Assembly (NCBI RefSeq): GCF_015689175.1
Contig: NZ_CP065047.1
Span: 3,162,001-3,226,000, forward strand
Direction of reading: 5' to 3'
DNA: 64,000 bases
DNA from: Mycobacterium kubicae
GTDB lineage: Bacteria; Actinomycetota; Actinomycetes; Mycobacteriales; Mycobacteriaceae
Shown piece after piece: positions 4,593 through 48,797 of this stretch. The stretch's first letter is position 1; the number at the start of each line of letters is the position of its first letter. Position numbers and translations under genes: made by a program. The notes under the pieces were generated by a model that ran no database searches, was not told the DNA's origin, and was given only the letters and a program-made list of their open reading frames with translations.

Positions 4593-4943
4593 CTAGACGC
4601 CGACCCGCCGCCACCCGTCGGCGGCCCTGGCCGCCCGGATGAGCTCCTCGCACAGCGAACGCAGCTCCGGCGCCGCGGCTCCTTCGTCCAGCGCGGTGGC
4701 GACGTCTTCGGCCGCGCATCGGACTTGATAGACGCGATCGGCCAGGTCGGCCGCCTCGTCGGAGGACAAGACCACCGCGTCGGCGGGCAACGCGGACACT
4801 TCACCGCGCGCCACGAGGGCCCGCTGCTCGTATGCGCGCTGCCGGCACGACTGGCGGCAGTACTGGCGGCGTCGGCCCATCCCGACGTCACTCACGTCGC
4901 GGCCGCACCAGCGGCACGGCTGGGGACGGGCTCGACGAGTCAC
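4593..4943 (-). CDS. Small CxxC/CxxxC putative zinc-binding protein, Rv2049c-like
   Basis: A 116-residue protein starting at GTG 4943. The N-terminal 40 residues carry two cysteine pairs, CRWCG and YCRQSC, followed by the basic stretch RQRAYEQR. This looks like a small zinc ribbon or treble-clef nucleic-acid-binding fold. The remainder is acidic and helical, rich in Ala, Glu and Asp. Position between pks12 and rbpA matches H37Rv Rv2049c, which has no assigned function. It is transcribed toward pks12 and away from rbpA. The zinc ribbon is inferred from the cysteine spacing alone. Confidence 0.75.
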   Translation of the reverse strand: MTRRARPQPCRWCGRDVSDVGMGRRRQYCRQSCRQRAYEQRALVARGEVSALPADAVVLSSDEAADLADRVYQVRCAAEDVATALDEGAAAPELRSLCEELIRAARAADGWRRVGV

Positions 4944-41847: not shown

Positions 41848-43188
41848 ATGCGGTGTGAGGTTGCGCGTGAGGAGCTGTCGGCGCGGCTGGACGGCGAGCG
41901 TCCACAGCTGCTGGCGCAGCAGGTCGACGCCCACCTCGAGTCCTGTCGACGATGCCGCAGTTGGCTGATCAGTGCGGCCGCGCAAACTCGGCGGTTGGCC
42001 ACCGTGGACGCGGGCCGCGGCCCCGACCTGGTCGACAAGATCATGGCTTCGGCCAGCGTTCCGGCGACGCCGTATCGCCGCTGGGTGCGCCGGCTGGGCA
42101 ACAGTTGCTGGCGGTGGTGCCTGATCGCCGTAGGCGTCTTCCAGGTCGCCATCGCCGCCGCCCAAATCAGTGGCATCGACTTCGGCATCATGCCGCACCA
42201 TATGCATGGCATGCACGGTGAAATGATGACCGGCGCGCATTTGCTGCACGAGTCCACCGCATGGCTGTTGGCGTTGGGGCTGGCCATGATTGCCGCCGGC
42301 ATCTGGACCGGCGCTGCGGCGGGTGTAGCCGCCATCGCCGGCGCCTACTCGCTCGCGCTGGTGGCTTATGTGGCGTACGACGCGTGGAACGGCGAGGTGA
42401 CGGCCGCCCGCATCGCCAGTCATGTGCCGGTGCTGGCCGGGATGGTATTCGCTTTGCTGGTAGCGCGAGACCGCGGCCGGGGCCGGTCGCGTTCCGAGCA
42501 ATCCGAAGCGGACGCGCCCGGCGAGCCGGCGGCTAGTTTGCCGGAGCGGCGCCGCGGGCATCTATGGCCCATCAACCGTTCTACGACGGCCCGTCGTACC
42601 CCCGGTGCGGCCGCCCGTTTAAGGTGGATGCCCATGACCGCGTCAAGCGACGACGAGGCCGTTACCGCGCTGGCCCTGGCGGCGGCAGAGGGGAACGCTC
42701 AGGCGCTCGAGGCGTTCATCAAGGCCACTCAGCAAGACGTGTGGCGCTTTGTCACGTACCTGTCGGACGCCGGCAGCGCCGACGACCTGACTCAGGAGAC
42801 GTTCCTGCGGGCGATCGGCGCCATACCGCGGTTCGCCGGCCGCTCCACCGCCCGAACCTGGTTGTTGTCCATTGCCCGCTGTGTCGTCGCCGACCACTTC
42901 CGCCACGCCCAGTCGCGGCCGCTGACCGCGCATGGCGCCGACCCCGAACAGTTGCTCGGCGGAGATCGGCACTCACGTGGGTTTGAAGACCTTGTCGAAG
43001 TGACCACCATGATCGCGCAACTCACCGCCGACCAGCGCGAAGCGTTGTTACTCACCCAGCTGCTCGGACTCTCCTACGCCGATGCGGCCGCGGTGTGCGG
43101 ATGCCCGGTGGGCACCATTCGGTCCCGCGTCGCCCGCGCCCGCGACGCCTTGCTGGCCGACGCCGACCGCGACGACCTGACCGGCTAG
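41848..43188 (+). CDS. Zinc-finger anti-sigma-like membrane domain in frame with SigC
   Basis: One uninterrupted 446-codon frame. Residues 1-45 contain an anti-sigma zinc finger HxxxCxxC (H29, C33, C36). Residues about 90-215 hold four membrane segments and a His/Met-rich loop ([13 protein letters not shown], near 113-125) suited to copper binding. After an Arg/Ser-rich linker (about 215-262), SigC begins at residue 263. No stop codon separates the parts. Either a fused protein is made, or SigC starts internally at ATG 42634 and the membrane protein is translated through. ZAS-type anti-sigma factors are normally a separate gene. The start ATG 41848 gives a family-like N terminus. Confidence 0.65.
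42634..43188 (+). CDS. sigC: ECF RNA polymerase sigma factor SigC
   Basis: A 184-residue ECF sigma factor closely matching Rv2069. The sigma-2 region ([18 protein letters not shown]) and sigma-4 helix-turn-helix ([19 protein letters not shown]) are intact. M. tuberculosis SigC is linked to virulence and, in recent work, copper acquisition. ATG 42634 ([10 protein letters not shown]) matches the known start, with AAGG at 42621-42624; ATG 42628 is an alternative. The same frame is open upstream through an anti-sigma-like domain. The stop TAG lies in CTAG at the edge of the IS composite. Confidence 0.93.
43185..43188 (+). other. CTAG flank, left, of the IS composite
   Basis: CTAG at 43185-43188 contains the sigC stop and is repeated at 47317-47320, where it contains the cobK stop on the other strand. 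Removing the composite leaves a shared CTAG with both stops overlapping, an arrangement also found between the 723-residue ORF and pepE at 55141-55144. Likely a 4-bp target duplication. Confidence 0.6.
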
Positions 43189-43304
43189 ACGGTATGGAGG
43201 CTGACTCGAGGCCGAAGGCCTCGGGCTGCAATCGGACGTGGGTTGCCGGTGTCGGGTGAACACTCGCACGGGTAGAGCCACAGTTGCAGATCAGGAGGCC
43301 TCCG

Positions 43305-44387
43305 GTGAGTTTCAACGGTACGAGTGTCGGGTTGGACGTGCACGCGCTTTCGGTGGTTGCTCATGCCGTCGATGAACAGACGGGTCGAGTCGAACGGGCG
43401 CGGTTGTGTCCTGATCACGGTGAGATCTTGGATTGGTTGCACCGGTTGCGAGGCCCGGTGCGAGTGGCCTATGAGGCCGGGCCAACGGGGTTTGGTCTGG
43501 CACGAGCTCTAGCGGATGCCCAGATCGACTGCGTGGTCGCCGCGCCATCGAAGCTGATCCGCCCGGCCGGGGATCGGGTCAAGACCGATGCTCGTGATGC
43601 TGCGCATCTGACCAGGTTGCTGCGGTTGGATGAGATCACTGCGGTTACGGTGCCCGACGTTGAGGTCGAGGCGGTGCGAGATTTGGTTCGTGCTCGCGAG
43701 GACGCCCGTGCGGATCTGATGCGTGTTCGGCACCGGTTGTCGAAGCTGTTGCTGCGCCAAGGCCGGGTCTACTCAGGTGGTCAGGCCTGGACCGGAGTGC
43801 ACGAAACGTGGCTTAGGCGCCAACGATTCGACGATGTCCACACCGCGGCGGCGTTTGATCATCACTTTGACGCGGTGCTCACCGCTACCGCGGCCAGGAA
43901 CCGTCTCGACGAGCAGATCGTCATGGTCGCGGCCTCACCGCGCTGGGCCGATCCGGTCAACCGGCTGGGCTGCCTACGCGGGATCTCGGCGTTGACTGGT
44001 CTGGCCTTAGCCGTAGAAATCGGGGACTGGACCCGATTCACCGGTGCCTCGATCGGCGCCTACGTCGGTCTGGTGCCCACCGAGTACTCCTCGGGGACTT
44101 CACGGGTCCAGGGTTCGATCACCAAGGCTGGCAACGCCCACGTCCGCAGACTGCTGATCGAATCGGCCTGGCACCACCGCGCCGGCTACCGCACCCCCGG
44201 TCCGACGATGCGGGCCCGATGGGCCAAGGTCGACCCAGCGCTCAAGGACCGCGGGCACGCCGGAAACCGCCGTTTACATCAGCAGTGGTGCCGGTTCAAT
44301 GAGCGCAAGAAGCCCCACGTCGTGGCCAACGTCGCGGTCGCTCGTCAACTGGCCGGTTGGTGTTGGTCGCTGGCCACGCTGACATAA
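43305..44387 (+). CDS. IS110-family transposase, left copy
   Basis: A 360-residue DEDD-type transposase. The N-terminal RuvC-like domain has GLDVHALSVVAHAV and, further on, AYEAGPTGFGLARAL and VKTDARDAAHL. The C-terminal Tnp_20 domain has LRGISALTGLALAVEIGDW and GSITKAGNAHVRRLLIE with the putative catalytic serine. GTG 43305 is chosen because AGGAGG lies at 43293-43298; the frame is open to 43284. The protein is identical to the copy at 46118-47200. IS110 enzymes act with a structured bridge RNA encoded in the element's non-coding end. Confidence 0.93.
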   Translation: MSFNGTSVGLDVHALSVVAHAVDEQTGRVERARLCPDHGEILDWLHRLRGPVRVAYEAGPTGFGLARALADAQIDCVVAAPSKLIRPAGDRVKTDARDAAHLTRLLRLDEITAVTVPDVEVEAVRDLVRAREDARADLMRVRHRLSKLLLRQGRVYSGGQAWTGVHETWLRRQRFDDVHTAAAFDHHFDAVLTATAARNRLDEQIVMVAASPRWADPVNRLGCLRGISALTGLALAVEIGDWTRFTGASIGAYVGLVPTEYSSGTSRVQGSITKAGNAHVRRLLIESAWHHRAGYRTPGPTMRARWAKVDPALKDRGHAGNRRLHQQWCRFNERKKPHVVANVAVARQLAGWCWSLATLT

Positions 44388-44629
44388 GCGCAGCCGCCCG
44401 AAGCTTGATCGGAGTCAGCCGGTCGGCGGTGAGGTAGGCGAACTGGACCTGCGTTACAGCTATGAGCAACAACAGCATTCGACCAATGCTGATGTGACGC
44501 CCGCCCCTAGAAAGCAGCCACCGTTCGCGCCGAACCATCGTCTTGCGGTACCCAACCCGCGTATATCAGTCTGACACCACCGTCGTTGACCAACGACCGC
44601 CGCGACGCCCGACTGACCCCGATCAAACG

Positions 44630-44661
44630 AAAGCCGCCCCGGCCCATACCGGGGCGGCTTT
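44630..44661. terminator. Strong GC hairpin in the left arm
   Basis: A 13-bp perfect stem (44630-44642 with 44649-44661) around a CCCATA loop, with A-rich and T-rich flanks on the two sides. It looks like a bidirectional terminator or a fixed element of a non-coding RNA. An exact inverted copy is at 45844-45875. Confidence 0.6.
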
Positions 44662-44819
44662 CACCTGCCTATTGACAAACAGTGCCTACATATCAGCTGT
44701 AGTGCCCAGGGTCGTTGGTTGAGATGTGACGACACGCTGTAGCGGTCGTTGATGGGTGAAGGTCTCCTGTCGTGGAGTGGAGCTGCTACCACTGCACCCA
44801 CAACGAACAGGAGACCTTC

Positions 44820-45812
44820 GTGGTCCACGCTAACGCTGTTTTGACGCCTCGGGGTCGGTTGATGCTGGCTCGTCGTGTCGTTGATGAGGGATGGCCGATC
44901 GTGCGGGCCGCTGAACATTTCCATGTGTCGTGGCCGACCGCTAAACGTTGGGCGGTGCGGTATGCGGCGATGGGCGAGGCCGGGATGACCGATCGCTCTA
45001 GCCGACCCCATCACAGCCCTAACCGCACACCGCCGCCGGTCGTGCGCCGCATCGTGGAGCTGCGGTGGCGACATCGCCTCTCACCGCTGGCGATCGCGTC
45101 GCGGTTGTCGATGCCGGCCTCCACAGTGCACGCCGTTCTGGTGCGGTGCCGACTGAATCGCCTGTCGTACATCGATCTTCGCACTGGAGAGGTCATTCGT
45201 CGCTATGAACACGATCGCCCCGGTGCGCTCCTCCACGTCGATGTGAAGAAATTGGGCAACATCCCCGACGGCGGCGGCTGGCGATTTGTGGGACGAGCGC
45301 AAGGATGGCAGAACCGACGTTCGATGCCCGACACCAAACGCAGTCGTTACCGCAACGAATTGATGGGGCATGGCTTCGTGCACACCGTAATCGATGACCA
45401 CTCGCGGGTGGCCTACGCCGAAATCCACGACGACGAAACTGCGGCCACCGCGATCGCGGTGTTGCGCCGCGCTGTGGGCTGGTTCGCCGTGCGCGGAGTG
45501 ACGGTGCAACGTGTGCTCTCCGACAATGGCTCGTGCTACCGCTCCCATGCCTGGCGCCACGCCTGTGCTGAGCTGCACATCGTGCCTAAACGGACCCGCC
45601 CCTACCGGCCTCAGACCAACGGCAAAATCGAGCGCTTTCACCGCACCATGACCGCCGAATGGGCCTTCGCCCGTCACTACCCCAACGAACGCACCCGCCG
45701 CTCAGCTCTACCGGCGTGGCTACACACCTACAATCACCACCGGCAACACTCCGCGATCGGCAAGACCCCACCCATCACACGGTTGACCAACCTGCCTGAG
45801 CACTACAGCTGA
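44820..45812 (+). CDS. IS481-family transposase
   Basis: A 330-residue DDE transposase. The N-terminal helix-turn-helix (LARRVVDEGWPIVRAAEHFHV) is followed by an integrase core with catalytic residues in LLHVDVKKLG, VLSDNGSCY and NGKIERFHRT. GTG 44820 with AGGAG at 44809-44813 gives the family's usual N terminus (VVHANAVLTPRGR). Its terminal repeats probably lie in the inner ends of the arms (around 44690-44710 and 45795-45815, sharing GTAGTGC and CAGG). Intact and the only asymmetric gene in the composite. Confidence 0.92.
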   Translation: MVHANAVLTPRGRLMLARRVVDEGWPIVRAAEHFHVSWPTAKRWAVRYAAMGEAGMTDRSSRPHHSPNRTPPPVVRRIVELRWRHRLSPLAIASRLSMPASTVHAVLVRCRLNRLSYIDLRTGEVIRRYEHDRPGALLHVDVKKLGNIPDGGGWRFVGRAQGWQNRRSMPDTKRSRYRNELMGHGFVHTVIDDHSRVAYAEIHDDETAATAIAVLRRAVGWFAVRGVTVQRVLSDNGSCYRSHAWRHACAELHIVPKRTRPYRPQTNGKIERFHRTMTAEWAFARHYPNERTRRSALPAWLHTYNHHRQHSAIGKTPPITRLTNLPEHYS

Positions 45813-45843
45813 TATGTAGGCACTGTTTGTCAATAGGCAGGTG

Positions 45844-45875
45844 AAAGCCGCCCCGGTATGGGCCGGGGCGGCTTT
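45844..45875. terminator. Strong GC hairpin in the right arm
   Basis: Inverted copy of the hairpin at 44630-44661, with a 13-bp stem and a 6-nt loop. It lies 31 bp after the IS481 transposase stop and would end that transcript. Confidence 0.6.
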
Positions 45876-46117
45876 CGTTTGATCGGGGTCAGTCGGGCGT
45901 CGCGGCGGTCGTTGGTCAACGACGGTGGTGTCAGACTGATATACGCGGGTTGGGTACCGCAAGACGATGGTTCGGCGCGAACGGTGGCTGCTTTCTAGGG
46001 GCGGGCGTCACATCAGCATTGGTCGAATGCTGTTGTTGCTCATAGCTGTAACGCAGGTCCAGTTCGCCTACCTCACCGCCGACCGGCTGACTCCGATCAA
46101 GCTTCGGGCGGCTGCGC

Positions 46118-47200
46118 TTATGTCAGCGTGGCCAGCGACCAACACCAACCGGCCAGTTGACGAGCGACCGCGACGTTGGCCACGACGTGGGGCTTCTTGC
46201 GCTCATTGAACCGGCACCACTGCTGATGTAAACGGCGGTTTCCGGCGTGCCCGCGGTCCTTGAGCGCTGGGTCGACCTTGGCCCATCGGGCCCGCATCGT
46301 CGGACCGGGGGTGCGGTAGCCGGCGCGGTGGTGCCAGGCCGATTCGATCAGCAGTCTGCGGACGTGGGCGTTGCCAGCCTTGGTGATCGAACCCTGGACC
46401 CGTGAAGTCCCCGAGGAGTACTCGGTGGGCACCAGACCGACGTAGGCGCCGATCGAGGCACCGGTGAATCGGGTCCAGTCCCCGATTTCTACGGCTAAGG
46501 CCAGACCAGTCAACGCCGAGATCCCGCGTAGGCAGCCCAGCCGGTTGACCGGATCGGCCCAGCGCGGTGAGGCCGCGACCATGACGATCTGCTCGTCGAG
46601 ACGGTTCCTGGCCGCGGTAGCGGTGAGCACCGCGTCAAAGTGATGATCAAACGCCGCCGCGGTGTGGACATCGTCGAATCGTTGGCGCCTAAGCCACGTT
46701 TCGTGCACTCCGGTCCAGGCCTGACCACCTGAGTAGACCCGGCCTTGGCGCAGCAACAGCTTCGACAACCGGTGCCGAACACGCATCAGATCCGCACGGG
46801 CGTCCTCGCGAGCACGAACCAAATCTCGCACCGCCTCGACCTCAACGTCGGGCACCGTAACCGCAGTGATCTCATCCAACCGCAGCAACCTGGTCAGATG
46901 CGCAGCATCACGAGCATCGGTCTTGACCCGATCCCCGGCCGGGCGGATCAGCTTCGATGGCGCGGCGACCACGCAGTCGATCTGGGCATCCGCTAGAGCT
47001 CGTGCCAGACCAAACCCCGTTGGCCCGGCCTCATAGGCCACTCGCACCGGGCCTCGCAACCGGTGCAACCAATCCAAGATCTCACCGTGATCAGGACACA
47101 ACCGCGCCCGTTCGACTCGACCCGTCTGTTCATCGACGGCATGAGCAACCACCGAAAGCGCGTGCACGTCCAACCCGACACTCGTACCGTTGAAACTCAC
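46118..47200 (-). CDS. IS110-family transposase, right copy
   Basis: Predicted protein identical to the left copy over its full length, in opposite orientation, so the two genes face each other across the IS481 gene. Start GTG 47200 mirrors 43305 with the same AGGAGG site. Both copies are intact with no frameshift. The convergent arrangement means long transcripts from either side would form about 1.5 kb of self-complementary RNA. Confidence 0.93.
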   Translation of the reverse strand: MSFNGTSVGLDVHALSVVAHAVDEQTGRVERARLCPDHGEILDWLHRLRGPVRVAYEAGPTGFGLARALADAQIDCVVAAPSKLIRPAGDRVKTDARDAAHLTRLLRLDEITAVTVPDVEVEAVRDLVRAREDARADLMRVRHRLSKLLLRQGRVYSGGQAWTGVHETWLRRQRFDDVHTAAAFDHHFDAVLTATAARNRLDEQIVMVAASPRWADPVNRLGCLRGISALTGLALAVEIGDWTRFTGASIGAYVGLVPTEYSSGTSRVQGSITKAGNAHVRRLLIESAWHHRAGYRTPGPTMRARWAKVDPALKDRGHAGNRRLHQQWCRFNERKKPHVVANVAVARQLAGWCWSLATLT

Positions 47201-47316
47201 CGGAGGCCTCCTGATCTGCAACTGTGGCTCTACCCGTGCGAGTGTTCACCCGACACCGGCAACCCACGTCCGATTGCAGCCCGAGGCCTTCGGCCTCGAG
47301 TCAGCCTCCATACCGT

Positions 47317-48042
47317 CTAGCCCAGCGCGGTCACCCAGGCGAGCGCCTCCTCGACCGTGCCGACCGTCGTCACCCCGTCGCGCAACGGCGGCCGCGCCAC
47401 CATCAGCACCGGGATGTCGAGCGCTGCGGCCGCGTCGAGTTTGGCGCGGGTCATGTCGCCACCGCTGTTCTTGGTGATCAGGGCATCGATGCGGTGGCTT
47501 TCGAGCAGGCGCAGTTCGTCGTCGTAGTGGTACGGCCCGCGGGAGAGCAGCACCTGGTGGCGGCGCGGGAGTGCGGCGGTGTCGAGCGCGGTGACCACGC
47601 GGATCAGATACCACGCGTCGCTTGCGGCGTAGGCTGCGACGGCCGAGCGGCCCGTGGTGAGGAATACTCGCGAATAGCCTTGGTGTGCAACGCGTTCAGC
47701 CGCATCGGTGTCCGAAGACACCACGATGGCGGCACCGGGGTCCCAGGCCGGGCGCGCCAGCACCAGGTGCGGCAGCTGCAACTCGGCGCAGGCTTCGGCG
47801 GCGTGCGCGGTCATGGTCGCCGCGAAGGGATGGGTGGCGTCGACGACGGCGTCGATGCGGTGCTCGCGCAGCCAGTTCTGCAGGCCGTCGACACCACCGA
47901 ATCCGCCTACTCTCACCGCCCCGGGCGGCAACGCCGGGTCGGGAACGCGTCCGGCCAGCGAGCTGATCACCTCGACGCGTGGCTGTAAAGCACTTGCCAG
48001 TGCGCGACCTTCGGCGGTGCCGCCGAGCAGCAGCACCCGCAT
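47317..48042 (-). CDS. cobK: Precorrin-6A reductase CobK
   Basis: A 241-residue NADPH-dependent reductase that converts precorrin-6A to dihydro-precorrin-6. The N terminus VLLLGGTAEGRALA, the central VDATHPFA and the C-terminal segment ALITKNSGGDMTRAKLDAA are family-typical. ATG 48042 is preferred over an in-frame TTG at 48045; it overlaps the cobM stop by one base (TGATG). The stop TAG falls in the CTAG next to the IS composite, so the protein is intact. Confidence 0.93.
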   Translation of the reverse strand: MRVLLLGGTAEGRALASALQPRVEVISSLAGRVPDPALPPGAVRVGGFGGVDGLQNWLREHRIDAVVDATHPFAATMTAHAAEACAELQLPHLVLARPAWDPGAAIVVSSDTDAAERVAHQGYSRVFLTTGRSAVAAYAASDAWYLIRVVTALDTAALPRRHQVLLSRGPYHYDDELRLLESHRIDALITKNSGGDMTRAKLDAAAALDIPVLMVARPPLRDGVTTVGTVEEALAWVTALG

Positions 48043-48797
48043 CAATGTGGGCCCTGGTCACGTCGCGCCTGCGAGTACAGGTAGCTGTCGGTGAAGCCCT
48101 CGGCCGCCAGCACCTCACCGATGATGATGACGGCGGTTTTGGTGATATTGGCCTGGTGCATCTGTTCGGCAATGCCGGACAAGACGCCGCGCAGCACCGT
48201 CTGCTGCGGCCAGCTAGCGAATGCGACTACGGCACAGGGTGTTTCGGAGTGATAGCCGGCCGCTTGCAGTTGCGCGACGATGGTATCGATTTGCGCGGCG
48301 GACAAGTGCAGGACCAGGGTGCCTCCGGACTGGGCAAGCGTGGTGAGGTCCTCACCGGCAGGCATGGCCGTCGATAGGGTCGCCACCCTGGTCAGCGTGA
48401 CCGTCTGGGCGACCCCGGGCACGGTGAGTTCGCGTTTGAGGCACGCCGCGGCCGCGGCGAAAGCAGGTACGCCCGGCACGATTTCGTAGTCGATACCCAG
48501 CGCGTCCAGGCGGCGGCACTGCTCGGCCAGCGCGCTGTACAGGGACGGGTCACCCGAGTGCAGGCGAGCGACATCGTGGCCGGCGGCGGCGGCGTCGGCC
48601 AGGTGTTCGATGATCTGCTCGAGTGTAAGCGGGCCGGTGTCAACGATTTTGGCGTCGGGTGGGCAATGGGCCAGCAGATCCTCGGGCATGATGGAGCCGG
48701 CATACAAGCACACCGGGCACCGTTCGAGCAGCCGCTGGCCCCGGACGGTGATCAAATCGACGGCGCCAGGGCCCGCGCCGATGAAGTACACCGTCAT
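48042..48797 (-). CDS. cobM: Precorrin-4 C11-methyltransferase CobM
   Basis: A 251-residue SAM-dependent tetrapyrrole methylase, the size of Rv2071c. GAGPGAVDLITVRG, LHSGDPSLYSA, VPGVPAFAAAAA and LVLHLSAAQ mark the family. ATG 48797 (MTVYFIGAGPG) is chosen over an upstream start at 48815; it overlaps the cobL stop by 4 nt (ATGA). Middle gene of SDR-cobL-cobM-cobK. Confidence 0.93.
   Translation of the reverse strand: MTVYFIGAGPGAVDLITVRGQRLLERCPVCLYAGSIMPEDLLAHCPPDAKIVDTGPLTLEQIIEHLADAAAAGHDVARLHSGDPSLYSALAEQCRRLDALGIDYEIVPGVPAFAAAAACLKRELTVPGVAQTVTLTRVATLSTAMPAGEDLTTLAQSGGTLVLHLSAAQIDTIVAQLQAAGYHSETPCAVVAFASWPQQTVLRGVLSGIAEQMHQANITKTAVIIIGEVLAAEGFTDSYLYSQARRDQGPH

Follow-up and report, generated by a model that had tools for sequence, protein, structure and literature searches.

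In a 64,000-nucleotide stretch of the Mycobacterium kubicae genome (contig NZ_CP065047.1, positions 3,162,001 to 3,226,000; hereafter the window), a 4.1-kb mirror-image unit made of two inverted IS110-type insertion sequences around one IS481-type insertion sequence separates sigC from cobK. We consider it very probable (roughly 0.93) that this unit reflects insertion of IS481 at GCTAGC followed by guide-directed insertion of IS110 at each seam between IS481 and its target. The IS481-family element would have inserted at GCTAGC, overlapping the stop codons of sigC and cobK, and by duplicating 6 bp would have formed CTAG-N-TGTA, read inwards, at both of its ends, where this motif is directly visible. 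IS110 would then have inserted twice, once beside each IS481 tip, landing between CTAG and N with its right end towards IS481. We infer that the noncoding region downstream of the IS110 transposase gene produces an RNA with two guides, one pairing with the strand that faces ..CTAG and one with AG-YTGTA, and that the DEDD recombinase joins the AG core of IS110 to the AG of the target. Because the orientation of insertion is fixed and each IS481 end is an inverted copy of the other, two such insertions would give a mirror image.

The anatomy of the unit is well defined (Table 1). Its inverted arms (43183-44719 and 45786-47322) are 1537 nt each and are separated by a 1066-nt spacer. An earlier interpretation made from the letters of this DNA (the sequence-only reading) described arms of about 1517 bp as exact inverted copies in the stretches compared; the symmetry is real and is exact over 43183-44705, and over the full arms 4/1537 bases differ, all near the inner end (44706 and 44711-44713). 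Open reading frames (ORFs) and family matches confirm its view of IS110-type arms around a single IS481 gene: each arm contains a complete IS110-type transposase ORF (43284..44387, + strand; 46118..47221, - strand), and the spacer holds one IS481-type transposase ORF (44772..45812, + strand). It had also noticed that CTAG at both ends supplies both host stop codons, which is borne out by the ORF ends, with CTAG at 43185-43188 closing the sigC-side ORF (end 43188) and CTAG at 47317-47320 closing cobK (47317..48045, - strand). The 4-bp duplication that it ascribed to IS110 is instead the 6-bp GCTAGC made by IS481 and split by IS110. It rightly held that IS110 elements usually make no duplication. 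Here the two IS110 junctions share AG only, and there is no target duplication of the element's own. The insertions leave the IS481 tips, the reading frame of its transposase and the two host stop codons intact. An assembly artefact is an unlikely source of the structure, since the contig that holds the window spans 5.96 Mb of a 6.02-Mb genome, a second two-sided unit occurs in the same genome, and a homologous unit is found on a Mycolicibacterium poriferae plasmid. In four related genomes (L026-L029; L numbers are our locus labels) sigC is followed directly by cobK, without insertion.

Table 1. Features of the mirror-image unit, in window coordinates. IS110 element ends are ambiguous by 2 bp, the AG core being common to element and target.
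Feature	Coordinates	Strand	Basis or remark
Left part (GCTAG) of the IS481 6-bp duplication GCTAGC	43184..43188	.	TAG is the sigC-side stop; bare IS481 copy has TCTAGC on both sides
Left IS110-family element, 1508 bp	43189..44696	+	Ends set by nine genomic copies with differing flanks
IS110-family DEDD transposase, 360 amino acids	43305..44387	+	Pfam PF01548, PF02371; NCBIfam NF033542
Putative target-binding loop of the guide RNA	44449..44517	+	Between basal stem CTGC (44449) and GCAG (to 44517)
Putative right-target guide UUACAGCU, complementary to AG-CTGTAA	44454..44461	+	Covariation with right flanks
Putative left-target guide CCCCUAG, same sense as left flank ..CTAG	44504..44510	+	Covariation with left flanks
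Possible donor-binding segments	44562..44586	+	UAUAUCAG like right end; ACCGUC complementary to left end GACGGT
Last base (C) of left duplication, stranded between IS110 and IS481	44697	.	Sequence
IS481-family element, 1110 bp, tips TGTAGTGC.../...GCACTACA	44698..45807	+	Five genomic copies; bare copy with TCTAGC
IS481-family transposase, 330 amino acids	44820..45812	+	NCBIfam NF033577; stop TGA supplied by right IS110 end
First base (G) of right duplication, stranded between IS481 and IS110	45808	.	Sequence
Right IS110-family element, inverted copy of the left one	45809..47316	-	Sequence comparison
Putative guide segments of the right IS110 copy	45995..46051	-	Left-target guide 45995-46001, right-target guide 46044-46051
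Right-copy IS110-family transposase	46118..47200	-	Family domain match
Right part (CTAGC) of the IS481 duplication	47317..47321	.	Contains cobK stop

The pieces of the unit also occur independently in the same genome. Of its five IS481 copies, those at sigC/cobK and near 980 kb carry IS110 on both sides, those near 170 and 4622 kb on one side only, and the one near 4374 kb is bare. The bare copy has TCTAGC on either side, a 6-bp NCTAGN duplication; NCTAGN-type duplications also surround IS481 relatives in other genomes, and NCTAGN is the IS481 target given in the available portions of two published accounts (PMC3053399; PMC2516522). Six of the nine IS110 copies adjoin an IS481 end; the remaining three (near 4682, 2516 and 1510 kb, of which the 1510-kb copy is interrupted) do not. 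In all nine, CTAG stands directly before the element and C or T, then TGT, directly after it, and their orientation is constant, with the right end facing TGT. The copies are nearly identical across the genome (seven full copies 100%, L003 99.7%). A search for half units, empty sites and further arm ends, as proposed in the sequence-only reading, proved decisive and returned one-sided units, a bare IS481 and solo IS110 copies, and no genomic copy has IS110 boundaries well inside the arms, the observation which that reading had named as telling against itself.

Covariation between element and flank points to how the site is addressed. In an alignment of the IS110 downstream noncoding region among relatives, two short segments vary along with the flanking DNA. 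We profiled 68 distinct IS110 right ends, of which 62 reach the element end; the right guide was scored in 48/62, and the other 14, in which the guide was missing or the end irregular, were dropped. When each distinct guide is represented by a single element (n = 16), 71/80 guide bases match the right flank, compared with a shuffled mean of 26.1 (standard deviation 4.8, maximum 54; 0/20000 shuffles reach 71). The match persists across all 48 elements (207/240 vs. 127.3 shuffled; 0/20000) and across 27 distinct guide-flank pairs (110/135 vs. 54.8 shuffled; 0/20000). Examples include UUGUAG with CTAC, GAGAAC with GTTCTC, AAAUCG with CGATTT, GCCCGG with CCGGGC, and GGAAAG with CTTTCC. Opposite a guide G, C and T both occur as the first base of the right target, consistent with G-U pairing. 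The left guide, scored in 39/62 elements (23 dropped), matches at 44/65 bases with one element per distinct guide (n = 13; shuffled mean 26.7; 0/20000). Left specificity is short: in most CTAG elements the match is limited to CT, the core and an additional one or two bases.

The placement of the guides resembles that of known RNA-guided elements. The right guide stands 5′ of the left guide, which is the IS1111 seekRNA order, where the top-strand complement stands 5′ of the bottom-strand match (PMC11187229, part available). In the accessible part of the bridge RNA description, the left guide pairs with the bottom strand and the right guide with the top strand (PMC11208160). In a sequence alignment of 25 elements, three putative helices place the two guides across an internal loop from each other. 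The helices enclosing the guides have 86.1% of cells paired (78.1% when shuffled) and a covariation of 0.200 (0.104 when shuffled), values reached by 0/500 shuffles in either case, while the count of seven pairs changed on both sides is not above shuffles (137/500). One basal pair switches from U-A (18 elements) to C-G (7 elements); the second helix often contains an A-C mismatch (12/25 unpaired). The candidate donor-binding segments were chosen by sequence match only, to IS110 ends that scarcely vary among relatives.

IS481 ends appear to be preferred over other copies of the same motif. CTAGYTGT is scarce in the genome, with 33 free occurrences compared with 961 of the reversed letters; two of the 33 are IS481 ends and the other 31 are without an IS481-type gene nearby. 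Free CTAGYTGTA occurs at three places, two of them IS481 ends, and when occupied sites are added back, 8/9 CTAGYTGTA sites would have been IS481 ends, with 6/8 occupied. Occupation of CTAGYTGT is 6/8 at IS481 ends and 3/34 elsewhere (Fisher’s exact test, P = 4e-4, although copies may not be independent). For CTAGYTGTA the corresponding figures are 6/8 and 0/1 (P = 0.33), which is too small a comparison. A requirement for C or T at the seam base is only suggestive (9/9 occupied vs. 2/4 free IS481 ends; Fisher’s exact test, P = 0.08). Separately, a candidate rule that IS110 inserts after host TAG stops was dropped, as some copies lie behind long open frames and others do not.

The association extends to other genomes. 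Among the 48 right ends whose guide could be read (L063 was left out, as 400 bp of flank were required), an IS481-type gene adjoins 14/30 of those with guides UUACAG, UUACAA, UUACGG or ACACAC and 0/17 of the others, a grouping made after seeing the data and including some related rows. One of the 14 right ends without a readable guide (L117) also has an adjoining IS481-type gene. The adjoining IS481s are diverse, with 38-54% protein identity to that of the window (L056, L066, L001, L126, L091). The homologous two-sided unit on the M. poriferae plasmid has an IS110 86% alike and a different IS481 (54% amino acid identity); a unit on an M. hippocampi plasmid (L133) has the same flanks, and the two were counted as one insertion. 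At L182 (1724-4583), one IS481 (43% amino acid identity) carries different IS110s at its ends, with 63% and 84% amino acid identity to that of the window. The more distant of these has guide ACACAC and right flank GTGTAT (4/5 match); this change of guide at the variable base of the seam hints that the address evolved more than once.

The order of insertion can be read from the bases on either side of CTAG, which we compared by eye with the other end of the same unit, in sigC/cobK, the 980-, 170- and 4622-kb units, L001, L056, L091, L126, L117, L154, L158/L134 and L182. The stranded base, or its outer counterpart, fits the local IS481 duplication in 19/22 comparisons. The fit holds also outside GCTAGC, as in L003, which has TCTAGT (read from the IS110 side). 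IS110 thus appears to have arrived after IS481 at each agreeing site.

Other origins of the unit have to be weighed against this one. Movement of the whole 4.1-kb unit as one composite, driven by the IS481 transposase or by the paired IS110s and duplicating CTAG, was suggested in the sequence-only reading and has in its favor two complete two-sided units at separate genomic sites, identical arms, and CTAG on both sides. We judge it very improbable, as one-sided units, solo IS481 and solo IS110 coexist in the genome, the outer unit ends are IS110 left ends rather than IS481 tips, and the duplication is that of IS481, interrupted by IS110. The stranded bases, in placing IS110 after IS481 even where the site is not GCTAGC, speak against a moving composite as well. 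Equally little weight falls on recognition of CTAG only, or of the site by protein alone, with IS481 adjacency arising from a shared liking for CTAG. Solo IS110 copies do occur at CTAG without IS481 (L012, L013, L024), and most CTAG elements show only weak left specificity past CT and the core, but YTGT lies to the right of all nine genomic copies, right flanks track the right guide across relatives, and CTAGYTGT is occupied far more often at IS481 ends than elsewhere.

Derivation of the second arm from a single inserted IS110, by recombination or copying, is just as hard to credit. The arms are identical, and the right IS481 tip at sigC/cobK is left-like at one base (CACTACA, compared with CAGTACA in the other right tips compared from this genome). 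Arm identity is uninformative, however, because all or nearly all genomic IS110 copies are equally identical; moreover, the IS481 ends offer no homology that would direct a copied arm to the position between CTAG and N, and insertion puts IS110 after CTAG at solo sites too. Nor is the mirror copying during transposition or replication that had been proposed for this DNA needed, given the same address at both IS481 ends and one IS110 orientation.

Several observations sit poorly with successive guide-directed insertion at IS481 seams. Three of the 22 stranded-base comparisons fail: in L126 and L117 the stranded base is C where the other IS481 end predicts T and A, respectively, and in L182 the failure concerns one base. 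One L142 copy matches its own right guide at 1/5, and the left flanks of L062, L122 and L077 do not read TAG. Folded alone, positions 44430-44600 do not differ from shuffled sequence (z = 0.11). Rfam returned a single match for the region, below its curated threshold and presumably due to chance. Furthermore, only 2/29 IS481 loci retrieved elsewhere in the genus (L153-L181) have a detectable adjoining IS110 right end, so IS110 does not regularly occupy IS481 ends elsewhere: 2/12 loci with 76-93% DNA identity have one (L154 and L158, at one end each), and none of 17 further loci (L165-L181) does.

The IS110 transposase scores above cut-off for PF01548 and PF02371 and reaches 207.9 bits (cut-off 140) against NF033542, "IS110 family RNA-guided transposase." By analogy with IS621, D11, E57, D95 and D98 are candidate DEDD residues. 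A sequence search of solved structures (E up to 0.01) returned no relative. The noncoding DNA amounts to 309 bp between the transposase stop (44387) and 44696, compared with 116 bp upstream of 43305. The motif GL-P----S(T)G, which marks the C-terminal domain of IS1111-group transposases in the available text of PMC11187229, is present as GLVPTEYSSG. A sub-terminal repeat, TATGGAGGC near the left end and TATGTAGGC near the right (reverse complement), matches at 8/9 bp. On the evidence of downstream noncoding region, guide order and C-terminal motif, the window IS110 has an IS1111-type layout.

Insertion into the ends of other elements has precedents of a similar kind. IS4321 and IS5075 are IS1111-type elements that reportedly target transposon ends. 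Like them, the window IS110 appears to be an IS1111-type element addressed to the end of another element, so that both ends can be filled. Unlike IS4321, whose target reportedly lies in the transposon's own repeat, it would read the IS481 duplication plus about four tip bases, and its insertion falls outside IS481 and fits IS481s as little as 38% alike in protein. With the seekRNA systems ISEc11, ISPa11, ISKpn4 and ISPst6 it shares the downstream noncoding region, guide order and natural reprogramming, but its 8/9-bp repeat is shorter than the sub-terminal inverted repeats of usually 11-13 bp, and its 360-amino acid transposase lies outside the range of 330-350 amino acids, given for the IS1111 group (PMC11187229); the RNA of the window element, unlike theirs, is predicted from sequence alone. 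As in the IS621 bridge RNA, the strand pairing of the guides, a core dinucleotide in both and guide-target covariation are found; IS621 has its RNA upstream of the transposase gene and a CT core, whereas here the putative RNA lies downstream, in reverse guide order, with an AG core (PMC11208160, portions available).

Elements of IS1111 type at transposon ends are therefore a known kind; what seems new, as far as we searched, is an address composed of the seam between an IS481 tip and its own target duplication. Among the titles and abstract beginnings of open-licence papers that our searches listed, none concerned IS110 at IS481 ends. A mycobacterial IS110 lineage may even have specialized as an RNA-guided parasite of IS481s in general, reading the NCTAGN/TGT-tip seam, although we lean slightly against so broad a claim. 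If it holds, one guide would serve many distantly related IS481s because it reads the seam of NCTAGN-inserting, TGT-tipped elements, insertion would harm neither IS481 nor host gene ends, and every IS481 jump would make new landing sites. Apart from that claim, the unit illustrates how a mobile element can be addressed to the trace that another has left in the chromosome, including the target duplication, and it accounts for long perfect mirror units in assemblies without invoking artefacts. The 16 right guides with their actual sites form a natural guide-target series for mycobacterial RNA-guided IS110/IS1111 recombinases, useful for learning pairing rules.

The IS481 transposase matches NF033577 at 330.8 bits (cut-off 224). 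Host stop codons can be kept through IS481-family insertion at CTAG, as described for TnRErm46 in the available part of PMC6794481. The transposase has no stop of its own: 26/35 loci with a long match end at the TAG (or TAA) of the target duplication, in three (window, L003, L001) a same-frame TGA from the IS110 end stops it, and in the remaining six it is interrupted, cut off or ends earlier. A target-site stop codon for IS481-family transposases is already published (PMC2516522 and PMC6794481, parts available). In the same portions, ISLxc2 (PMC2516522) and ISRe46 of TnRErm46 (PMC6794481) resemble the window IS481 in NCTAGN, TGT tips, target-supplied stop and insertion at host stop codons; unlike them, the window IS481 has IS110 at both ends, giving the same-frame TGA. 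The IS481 adjoining the L056 IS110 begins with 20 bases equal to the inverted repeat given there for TnRErm46/ISRe46 of Rhodococcus equi (PMC6794481).

Some copies carry further insertions. An identical 4475-bp insert encoding two tyrosine recombinases and a DUF6262 protein lies near the transposase end in 3/5 IS481 copies (L021, L022 and L023; approximately 980, 170 and 4374 kb), and the transposase C terminus of these copies is altered, yet their sites and duplications differ. One solo IS110 copy (L024, 1893-6470) is split by approximately 4.6 kb encoding a Mutator-family (IS256-type) transposase and two tyrosine recombinases. At L060 (1376-1511), a second partial IS110 right end follows approximately 125 bp behind the first, as if one target had been hit twice.

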